A stretch of DNA of 64,000 nucleotides, taken from positions 124,001-188,000 of the forward strand of contig CANNFA010000004.1 of assembly GCA_947503765.1 (NCBI GenBank), given 5' to 3'. The position numbers and the translations under genes are program-made. The notes below the pieces were generated by a model that worked only from the letters and a program-made list of their open reading frames with translations, made no database searches and was not told the origin of the DNA. Below are positions 26,096 to 48,596 of this stretch, piece after piece; position 1 is the first letter of the stretch, and the number at the start of each line of letters is the position of its first letter. The stretch is from an uncultured Paracoccaceae bacterium. GTDB lineage: Bacteria > Pseudomonadota > Alphaproteobacteria > Rhodobacterales > Rhodobacteraceae.

Positions 26096-26515
26096 CTATT
26101 CCTCGTCCACCGGGCCGCGCAGGGATTTCACCTGACCGCGCGCCCTCTTCCCTTCCAGCCGCCGGCGTTTGGAGGCGAGGGTCGGGCGCGTCGGGATACG
26201 CCGTTTCGGGCGGTGCAGGGCGGCACGGATCAGTTCCGCAAGCCGGTCGCGCGCGATGTCGCGGTTGCGGGCCTGGTGGCGGGTTTCGTCCACCCGCAGC
26301 ACGATCGCGCCATCGGTGGTCCAGCGGCGCCCGGCAAGCCGTTTCAGCCGGGCCTTGACCGCGCGCGGCAGGTTCGGCGACCGCTCCGCCTCGAAGCGCA
26401 GCTCGACGGCGGTGGCCACCTTGTTGACGTTCTGCCCGCCGGGACCGCCGGCGCGCACGAATTGCTCGGTCAGTTCCCAATCCTCGATCGCGATTTCGTC
26501 GGTAATGCGCAGCAT
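26096..26515 (-). CDS. arfB: Alternative ribosome-rescue factor B (peptidyl-tRNA hydrolase on stalled ribosomes)
   Basis: 139 residues. ArfB (YaeJ) enters the empty A site of ribosomes stalled on mRNA without a stop codon and hydrolyses the peptidyl-tRNA. The catalytic GGQ is at residues 26-28 in RAGGPGGQNVNK, followed by the release-factor domain; the C-terminal tail (about 105-139) is very basic (RRIPTRPTLASKRRRLEGKRARGQVKSL), as needed to sit in the mRNA channel. The start at 26515 has GAGGGGGC upstream. A structured RNA with a terminator lies 53 bases upstream and may control its expression. Confidence 0.92.
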   Translation of the reverse strand: MLRITDEIAIEDWELTEQFVRAGGPGGQNVNKVATAVELRFEAERSPNLPRAVKARLKRLAGRRWTTDGAIVLRVDETRHQARNRDIARDRLAELIRAALHRPKRRIPTRPTLASKRRRLEGKRARGQVKSLRGPVDEE

Positions 26516-26567
26516 CGCCCCCTCTTCCGCCGTTACGCTTCCCTGCTGACATAGGGCGTTTCGAACG

Positions 26568-26593
26568 AAAAGGGCCGCCATGCACGGCGGCCC
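26568..26593 (-). terminator. Rho-independent terminator upstream of arfB
   Basis: On the minus strand GGGCCGCC, loop GTGCAT, GGCGGCCC is followed by TTTTCGTT. The stem is 8 bp and perfect (plus-strand arms 26572-26579 and 26586-26593). It lies about 53 bases before the arfB start, so it either ends an independent small RNA or is an attenuator. Confidence 0.8.
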
Positions 26594-26668
26594 TTCGAGT
26601 CTTTATGGAGAAGTTCGGTTAGGACCTGAGCGGTCCAATCGAAAGGAGGTCCCCCGTCGGGGCTGCCC

Positions 26669-26725
26669 TCAGGCGGAGAATCCTCCGACTGTTCCGACAC
26701 CTTTCTCCAACATCGCTCCAGACAC
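26669..26725 (-). CDS. Tiny leader ORF (18 codons)
   Basis: GTG at 26725 is preceded by AAAGGAGGTGATCCA, about the strongest ribosome binding site possible, and the frame closes at TGA 26669-26671 after 18 residues. An in-frame ATG lies at 26713. The peptide (MSGAMLEKGVGTVGGFSA) is not known to me. Its stop is just before the arm that can sequester its own ribosome binding site. It may act by being translated rather than through its product. Confidence 0.4.
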   Translation of the reverse strand: MSGAMLEKGVGTVGGFSA

Positions 26726-26844
26726 TGGATCACCTCCTTTCGTTGATTTCTGATACCCCGAGCGTGGCACATATTTTGTGTTTGTCAAAACTTTTTCCTC
26801 AAGCTGTGGAGGATTTTGGCCGACACCCTGTTCAGGTGCCGTTT

Positions 26845-27486
26845 TCAGGCCCCGGCGCGGCGCCGACGCAACAGCGCGGCAACGACGATGCGGAACGGGA
26901 TCAGCGCGATCAGCGCCAGCGCCAGTTTTACCATCCAGTCGGCCACGGCCAGCGACACCCAGAGCGGCGCGGCGGGACCGGTGCCCAGCAGCGGCAGCGC
27001 CGCATTCGCCCAGCCGACATCGTTGGCAGGCTCGATGAAGGACAGCCCGGCCGAAAAGGCGAGCGTGAAGAAGATCGCCGTATCCACGCTCGATCCGACC
27101 AGCGACGAGGCCAGCGGCGCCGTCCACCAGCGCCCGCCGCGCAGCCGGTCGAAGACCGCCACGTCCAGCAATTGCGCCGTCAGAAAGCCAAGGCCGGATC
27201 CCAGCGCGACCCGCAACGTCACCGCCGGGTAGCTGCCGTCCGGGCCGTGCAGCATGATCTGCGTGCCGACCAGCGAACAGGCGACACCCGTGGCGAACCC
27301 GGCAAACACCACCTTGCGCGCGGTCGCGGCGCCGTAGACGCGGTTCATCACGTCGGTGACGAGAAAGGCGAAGGGATAGGTGAAGGCGCCCCAGGTCAGC
27401 CATTGGCCGAACAGGACTTGCACAAGGATGTTCGAGGCCACCACGATGGCGGCCATGGCAAGGATGCCGGGCAGGATACGGGTCAT
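26845..27486 (-). CDS. yhhQ: Queuosine precursor transporter (VUT family)
   Basis: 213 residues with about six membrane helices. The family signature TYPFAFLVTDVMNRVYG is at about residues 36-52. YhhQ-type proteins import 7-cyano-7-deazaguanine or preQ1 for queuosine synthesis in tRNA. ATG 27486 gives the expected N-terminus; the SD is weak. The gene lies upstream of the arfB leader on the same strand. No queuosine synthesis gene is in the window. Confidence 0.85.
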   Translation of the reverse strand: MTRILPGILAMAAIVVASNILVQVLFGQWLTWGAFTYPFAFLVTDVMNRVYGAATARKVVFAGFATGVACSLVGTQIMLHGPDGSYPAVTLRVALGSGLGFLTAQLLDVAVFDRLRGGRWWTAPLASSLVGSSVDTAIFFTLAFSAGLSFIEPANDVGWANAALPLLGTGPAAPLWVSLAVADWMVKLALALIALIPFRIVVAALLRRRRAGA

Positions 27487-27550
27487 CGGGTCTGGTCCGT
27501 TTTGGCAAGGTAGCGGAGACTTGGCCCCGGCGCGCGGGAACGAAAGCCGA

Positions 27551-28468
27551 TTACCGCCGGGCGCGGGCCGCGTCAAGATCGGCGGGAAGGCGGTATTCGA
27601 CAAGCTCGGTCCTCTGGAACGGGCGGAAATTGTCGTCCGAGATCATCGTCAGCCGGATATCCCCGGCCGTATCGCGCCACACCGCCAGACCTTCGAGGTT
27701 GTCGTGCTGCCCGCTCCGGGTTTCCAGGAGAACCCGTTCATCCACCGCGCCAGCATCGGTGAAGGCAAAGCTGCGCACCCGGTTGCGAAAGCCGAAGATG
27801 CCGGCAAAGTGACGCTCCAGCAGGTAGAACCGCCCGTCCGGGCCGAAATCGGCGCCGACCGGCAGGTATTCGTCGCGGCGCGGGATGTCGAAGGGCTGTG
27901 TCCAGGCGCCGTCCGCGTAGCGGTAGACGGGAAAGGGCCGGCGCTTGCGCCCGGATCGCTCGGGCAGGGTGTAAAGCGCGCCGGACGCGTCGATGGCCAG
28001 AGCCTCCAGCCCGGAATTGGGTTGCAGGCCGTCGAAATCGGGGTGCTGCGGGATCGGCCTGGCCGGACTCTGCCGACCGTCATAGACCCATACCCGGTGC
28101 CGTCCCTCGAACGACACGAAGATGCGCCCGTCATCGCGCCGTGCCAGACCTTCGGAATCGGTGTCGCTGCGGCGCAGCGGGGCGCCTTTCGTGTCATGCA
28201 ACGGGTGCACCGGCAGCGCGGACACTCCGGCAATCGCGCCGTCCACGCGCAACAGGCGTCCCTCGACCACACCGCCCCGGTCACTGAGCGCAAGGAACCG
28301 CGCGCCGCCATCCCAGACTTCGAGCCCGGAAAACCCGCCGAAGCCCCGGCCGCGCTCCGACCAGGTGTAGCTTCCCACGAACTCGGCGGCGTTGCGCGTC
28401 CCGGTCAGGCCGGGCGCGCCCACCGTCAGTCCGAACAGGATTACTGCGATGAAAGGACGGAAGCGCAT
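27551..28468 (-). CDS. Esterase-like activity of phytase family protein
   Basis: 305 residues with a signal peptide (about 1-20), so periplasmic. The mature protein matches the PF13449-type phytase-like esterase family: repeated beta-blade segments with [33 protein letters not shown] and D-N-L-E-G-L-A, whose acidic residues would bind calcium in a propeller fold. The substrate is unknown. Its start lies inside the end of mepA (28-base overlap), which suggests translational coupling, and its own ribosome binding site is weak. Confidence 0.8.
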
Positions 28469-48277: not shown

Positions 48278-48320
48278 CTTTGGATATCCTTCCAGATATT
48301 CGCCCCTCGTTGGGGAGGGG
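48271..48320 (-). promoter_or_regulatory. serC leader with mutually exclusive hairpins (serC-motif candidate)
   Basis: On the minus strand GAGGGG/CCCCTC arms make a leader hairpin (plus 48303-48320). Next, GATATCC (48282-48288) can pair upstream with ATATC (48295-48299), placing the Shine-Dalgarno GGAAGG in the loop, or downstream with GGATA (48271-48275), placing the ATG in the loop. The two cannot form together. An RNA motif upstream of serC is known in alphaproteobacteria; I think this is an example, from memory. The rest of the 319-base divergent gap (48321-48596) holds the serB side promoter, with TATAGG near 48560 and AAGGAG before serB, and no gene. Confidence 0.5.
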
Positions 48321-48596
48321 TGTCCCGCGGATGGGGATACGCGCGTCTTCGGGGACAGGCAAGTGGTAGCGGCAGAGCGCCCCGGCGGCAGACGGGACAG
48401 GCGCTCGTCTGCCGGTTCGTTGGCCGCGGCGGGAAACCGGAAAAAACGCCGCGTTCGCCATACCGTCGTGTCCGGTTGACATGCCGCCGGAGCTTGCAGG
48501 ATCAACGGCGGCGGCGGCCGAACAGTTCCAGAGGTTCTTTCCTGGCGGGCGAATCGCCGCTATAGGGCGCCCGGACCCGCGAAGGAGCACCGCGCC

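Follow-up and report, generated by a model that had tools for sequence, protein, structure and literature searches.

Organisation of the locus

The window, meaning the whole stretch of 64,000 nt that was analysed, carries a short element on its minus strand between a transporter gene and arfB. The features of the locus were as follows:

26845-27603, upstream neighbour: transporter gene (queuosine-precursor); TIGR00697 above cut-off, NF008406 below its own cut-off
26761-26788, minus strand: promoter-like sequence, TTGACA (26788-26783) and CACGCT (26766-26761) with a spacer of 16; read from the sequence and its relatives
26571-26749, minus strand: RNA resembling RF01867 (CC2171); 46 bits, E 1.6e-8, under the 75-bit gathering score
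26741-26725, minus strand: extended Shine-Dalgarno (SD) sequence GAAAGGAGGTGATCCAG, complement of the 16S 3' tail; sequence and duplex energy
26669-26725, minus strand: mini-ORF with GTG at 26725-26723, 18 codons and TGA at 26671-26669; stop kept in relatives
26650-26640, minus strand: genus-specific 11-bp anti-SD ACCTCCTTTCG; duplex energy and count of the arm in relatives
26622-26636, minus strand: hairpin GGACC (26636-26632) / GGTCC (26626-26622); sequence and helix 5 of the alignment
26607-26614, minus strand: weakened counterpart of the pre-terminator anti-SD, ACTTCTCC; alignment with relatives
26596-26567, minus strand: intrinsic terminator, hairpin and T-run; terminator core list, folds and alignment
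26096-26515, minus strand: arfB, downstream neighbour, ATG at 26515; NF006718, E 1.2e-53

Read along the minus strand, the order was TTGACA-N16-CACGCT, the 17-nt SD, the GTG mini-ORF, ACCTCCTTTCG, the GGACC/GGTCC hairpin and the terminator, and transcription of the element would start at about 26753. The GTG start lies 7 nt after GGAGG, ACCTCCTTTCG is the exact reverse complement of CGAAAGGAGGT (26742-26732, minus strand), and the ATG of arfB follows about 52 nt past the T-run of the terminator. The 17-mer was complementary to GGCUGGAUCACCUCCUUUC, a 16S-type 3' end printed as an oligonucleotide (39merRNA) in a paper on Sinorhizobium meliloti (PMC6943124), from which the 16S letters used here were taken. 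The original prediction, made from the letters of the window, had named the 17-nt complement of the 16S tail, the 18-codon GTG ORF, the 11-bp anti-copy, the hairpin and the terminator; all of these are real, and their letters and order were given correctly.

A sigma-70 consensus scan found no promoter, and the promoter-like sequence was read from relatives instead. Of 64 Rhodobacteraceae-type copies, 44 had TTGACA at the matching distance, 29 had TTGACA-N15-18-CANNCT and just 16 had the strict form TTGACA-N16/17-CA[CG]GCT. A promoter-like sequence was also read by eye upstream of Rhizobiales-type copies. The promoter spacer of many Rhodobacteraceae-type copies showed by eye an inverted repeat like ACACAAAATCTGTGT, which is possibly the site of a regulator.

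Relatives and relation to RF01867

When 61 genomes were searched by DNA similarity, copies turned up across the family of the window at decreasing identity, most of them flanked by the transporter gene and arfB. In the class, 35 of 385 genomes scanned contained the SD block. At least 120 stretches from named genomes carried it (Bosea, Methylobacterium, Bradyrhizobium, Ancylobacter, Brevundimonas and Azospirillum among them), a number that is no census and comes from an exact pattern fixing the SD, an NTG start and the TC after it. Two of the stretches with the SD block (L071 and L091) were from MAGs labelled Gemmatimonadetes/Gemmatimonadota, by transfer, mislabelling or chance.

The window matched the Rfam model RF01867 (CC2171, a Caulobacter sRNA, filed by Rfam as gene/sRNA) over the full model span of 1-159. 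As the 75-bit cut-off was not reached, the element is, on this sequence match, a divergent Rhodobacteraceae relative of RF01867 and no member by the rule of Rfam. At E<=1e-3 the model matched 101 of 129 genomes of the family (none over the cut-off) and 78 of 367 genomes of the class (12 over the cut-off), and 8 of 18 homologous loci scanned exceeded the cut-off. In the alignment to the model, the window has the conserved 5' block (AACAA..GAAAGGAGGUGAUCCAGUGUCU), with the SD and GUGUCU, and the terminator. Its internal helices, its ORF length (18 codons) and the position of its anti-SD differ from those of CC2171, and its alignment has gaps at the positions of the long-range helix CAUUGUC/GACAAUG that precedes the terminator in RF01867. 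Homology across the class rests mostly on the first 30 nt and the terminator, with internal pairings that depend on the clade, and this was counted against the reading preferred below. Text searches, which did not extend to the original report (Landt 2008), turned up no function for CC2171, and the available parts of PMC5107571 and PMC5082802 held no link to the element.

Identical copies were merged before counting, and the diverged copies L025 and L037 were kept outside the set. The latter (genome G017) lies in front of arfB; its SD is cut down to GAAAGGAGGTG, it starts with ATG and it has kept the partner CCACCTCC. The terminator finder gave none for 17 of 171 elements, and these rows were dropped before the counts. 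The pair tests covered 63 of 65 Rhodobacteraceae-type, 48 of 57 MSHC/Bradyrhizobium and 40 of 49 other elements, and alignment A1 held 60 of the 63 Rhodobacteraceae-type copies (L012, L080 and L176 left out).

The mini-ORF and its stop codon

Among 66 Rhodobacteraceae-type copies, collected by a nucleotide-only rule (TGGAG at codons 6-7) with no ORF-length filter, 62 had a stop at codon 19 (TGA 31, TAG 21, TAA 10, TGG 0). A Fisher test on the two variable stop positions gave 4.8e-9, and 1.1e-7 after dereplication to 46 copies, beyond which the tests ignore phylogeny. One of the four exceptions runs off its stretch, and the others stop after 12, 17 and 20 codons. An earlier Rhodobacteraceae class had been filtered at 16-20 codons, which is a bias risk for the stop test, and the unfiltered repeat agreed with it. 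The Bradyrhizobium form had its stop at codon 15 in 12 of 13 copies (TAG 5, TGA 4, TAA 3) in an otherwise nearly invariant sequence, while the ORF of the MSHC group (Rhizobiales and others) was 21-26 codons long in 42 of 44. Nearly all copies had an ORF of 14-33 codons, and base shuffling gave a far wider spread of ORF lengths, the Rhodobacteraceae comparison being made on the length-filtered class.

Entropy was alike at the three codon positions and the peptides diverged between clades past the first residues, so the peptide seems not to be what is kept. Peptide conservation or a coding signature was sought across the groups and found only in the Azospirillum-like group, whose four loci (L041, L126, L162 and L177) have the same SD, an ORF of 56-59 codons and, by eye, a signal-peptide-like start. 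In each of the six pairs of these loci the third codon positions changed most often, and a real protein may therefore have arisen in that group. These four loci and the kept stop codon would suit an element that is simply the mRNA of a functional micropeptide; since the other groups vary alike at all three positions and have clade-specific peptides, we regard this explanation as quite improbable.

On the strength of the kept stop codons, the mini-ORF looks translated. The window mini-ORF has several rare codons, such as GGA, TCT and ACA, whose frequency in five nearby genes (1646 codons) was 3.0-4.3 per 1000. In the available part of a ribosome profiling study of Caulobacter, most intergenic ncRNAs were untranslated, which counts against the preferred reading; two earlier ncRNAs were excepted, which that part does not name, and it names no translation status for CC2171 (PMC4117421).

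RNA fold, masking of the SD and terminator

The 196-nt RNA had a folding energy of -82.6 kcal/mol; shuffled sequences gave -67.7 (sd 4.3), and the z of -3.45 marks the fold as more than chance. The SD/16S tail duplex had an energy of -32.2 kcal/mol, the duplex of the SD with the internal arm -20.5 and that with the pre-terminator stretch -7.9. In all 63 Rhodobacteraceae-type copies tested, pairing of the SD with the rest of the molecule exceeded the average of 20 shuffles. Masking was weaker in the MSHC group, where 33 of 41 beat the shuffles, a result counted against the preferred reading. A pre-terminator 7-nt site able to pair with GGAGGUG was present in 58 of 63 copies (13.4 in shuffles), and the exact motifs CATCTCC/CACCTCC/CGCCTCC (in RNA CAUCUCC/CACCUCC/CGCCUCC) in 42 of 63. 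The window's genus differs from the other copies in this stretch, which reads ACTTCTCC in the window. The long anti-SD arm after the ORF occurred in 5 of 66 copies, all in the window's genus (L001 and L010-L013), with exact ACCTCCTTTCG in two; in its place, the majority of the remaining copies carry a 7-nt partner of the CAUCUCC/CACCUCC/CGCCUCC type.

The helices were compared over the 60 aligned copies. The helix of the SD core with the pre-terminator anti-SD was paired in 98.3% of cells, and that of the start-codon region with codons 5-7 in 97.9%; changes in the second were one-sided only, and those in the first were one-sided and wobble-compatible only. Both-side changes were found in 3 of 4 pairs of the helix of codons 10-11 with CCGG (96.2% paired), in 7 of 9 pairs of codons 12-15 with the downstream arm (77.9%), in all 4 counted pairs of the variable GGACC/GGTCC hairpin (63.4%) and in 10 of 12 pairs of the terminator helix (91.1%). 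Over the nested structure as a whole, 24 of 43 pairs showed both-side changes, compared with 15.2 in column shuffles, a control that leaves the relatedness of the copies in place. The share of paired cells was 88.7%; column shuffles reached 85.0%, and sliding by one to three columns left 59.8% at most. The SD itself scarcely varies, in part because an exact SD pattern was used to collect most copies. This, the one-sided changes of the SD helix and the relatedness that column shuffles leave in place were counted against the preferred reading.

When codons 12-17 of the ORF were combined with their own or with foreign downstream arms, none of 2000 permutations was as good, while a control segment of the ORF gave 1651 of 2000. 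The corresponding test of early codons against the pre-terminator stretch failed for the 63 Rhodobacteraceae-type copies (1283 of 2000 permutations as good), which also speaks against the preferred reading; in the MSHC/Bradyrhizobium group and in the other groups the two covaried (0 of 2000 each). The predicted pairing of SD and anti-SD is there and the masking is conserved. The covariation expected of homologous leaders was found in part: a covarying structure masks the SD, but the SD helix itself changes on one side only and the long arm is confined to the few copies of one genus.

Two rival explanations turn on this part of the RNA. An abundant RNA that serves solely to tie up 30S subunits, either free ones or those with a free 16S tail, would make good use of the 17-bp complement and its -32.2 kcal/mol, and AAAGGAGGTG was invariant in 60 of 60 aligned rows (partly by construction of the set) and in the 27 of 27 copies that entered the set from the DNA-similarity search. 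Such a decoy would need neither an ORF nor a kept stop codon nor a masked SD, and we consider it quite unlikely. It seems no more probable that the RNA acts in trans with incidental translation, offering its anti-SD to other mRNAs as the original prediction had proposed for a small RNA. The small-RNA part of that proposal fits the Rfam match, the C-rich anti-SD segment is conserved, and Caulobacter SisA is reported to repress targets, with a 10-mer of anti-SD signature as the likely means (PMC12559287); the anti-SD of the window is, however, predicted to pair with the SD of its own RNA, and the kept stop codon is left unexplained.

The terminator hairpin was formed in four of four minimum-energy folds of the window RNA (one unconstrained and three in which the SD, the initiation footprint or the stop region was kept from pairing), and none of the four held a mutually exclusive antiterminator. 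The idea that the fold sets read-through into arfB is therefore unsupported.

Association with arfB and other neighbours

The RF01867 and ArfB searches were run over the same 129 family genomes. Among the 101 with an RF01867 match, arfB lay on the same strand and downstream within 300 nt in 79, so its association with the element was not constant; in the other 22 it lay at 569-3253 nt (6), elsewhere (15) or was not found (1). Some of the 15 were on other contigs and the element of G504 was at a contig end, so that assembly breaks may account for a few of the 22. A further 21 genomes had arfB with no element match, and some of these carry diverged copies (G017, G034 and G035). The end of the RNA match and the start of the ArfB match were at most 40 nt apart in 33 of the 79 close neighbours, which leaves hardly any room for a promoter; read-through therefore probably feeds arfB in those 33 genomes.

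Both neighbours of the window were present in 35 of 52 Rhodobacteraceae-type loci with long flanks, the transporter only in 15 and neither in 2. Homologues elsewhere in Alphaproteobacteria adjoin other genes, and in 87 of 88 loci of the other groups with long flanks there was neither transporter nor arfB. The next gene downstream in five loci (L083, L085, L105, L156 and L159, Bosea and Methylobacterium among them) belongs to one protein cluster, which on our reading of its sequence looks like RNase R.

The element had been predicted to be a leader of arfB in which ribosomes set the fold and hence read-through. As an account of what the element is in essence, this is not supported, in view of the 22 of 101 family genomes and the 15 of 52 loci (transporter kept) that have no close arfB, the other neighbours in the class, the terminator in every fold tried and the long arm restricted to one genus; read-through as such held up as likely where the gap is at most 40 nt. 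An attenuator of arfB, in which ribosomes on the leader ORF determine the fold and with it the read-through, would agree with the conserved stop of the ORF, the frequent closeness of arfB and the scant room for a promoter. Given the terminator in all four folds, the copies with no close arfB and the different neighbours of the class homologues, it is unlikely. Leaky termination may supply arfB mRNA in many Rhodobacteraceae, which suggests how this ribosome-rescue gene may be transcribed there.

Proposed role of the element

Comparison of the relatives supports an extended SD, a short ORF with a kept stop codon, a terminator, and a fold in which the SD, the start region and some of the ORF are paired. 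The reading that we prefer, to which we give about an even chance of being right, is a ribosome-gated small RNA with a translated mini-ORF, related to RF01867/CC2171 and primarily a small-RNA gene of its own, not a leader of arfB. In its favour are the RF01867 match, the promoter-like sequence, the varying neighbours, the kept stop codon with similar entropy at the three codon positions, and the results of the pairing tests. The free RNA would be folded and closed until opened by a 30S subunit whose 16S tail is free, because the 17 pairs beat the internal duplex, and the ribosome would then read the short frame and stop at a fixed place. The ribosome-loaded RNA would differ from the free RNA in fold and probably in stability, and the freed anti-SD-like or ORF-pairing segments could pair elsewhere, so that the regulator would act in this way rather than through a peptide.

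For a very strong SD that serves as a sensor, the closest precedent is rpsU of Bacteroidota, whose extended SD is read by ribosomes with a free anti-SD (PMC9976891). Both have an exceptionally strong SD and may sense the availability of the 16S tail; rpsU, however, is a ribosomal protein gene, whereas the ORF of the window element is a mini-ORF and its SD is masked in its own RNA. The attenuator rnTrpL/peTrpL of Sinorhizobium (PMC10117765) is alike in its short ORF, terminator and small RNA product, but the window element had no antiterminator in the folds tried, its downstream gene varies and translation of its ORF is a prediction. The anti-SD sRNAs SisA-D (PMC12559287) share a C-rich anti-SD-like segment, which in the window is predicted to pair in cis with the extended SD.

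A wider and more tentative proposal, which we think possible but doubtful, sees in RF01867 and its divergent branches a ribosome sensor shared across the class Alphaproteobacteria. In it, a small RNA would carry a full complement of the 16S tail, masked by an internal copy of the anti-SD, and would be switched by 30S subunits with a free tail; these would have to initiate, read a fixed short frame and terminate, and the information would lie in the passage of the ribosome and not in the peptide. What Rfam classes as an sRNA family appears to contain a translated frame whose stop codon is selected, with no conserved peptide. If so, it would become testable whether a dedicated RNA lets bacteria gauge free ribosomes or free 16S tails. 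A Rhodobacteraceae branch that lies under the Rfam cut-off is also pointed out here. Elsewhere on the minus strand of the window, at 48279-48491, a match to the Rfam sRNA Atu_At1 (105.3 bits) adjoins a serC leader (74.1 bits).
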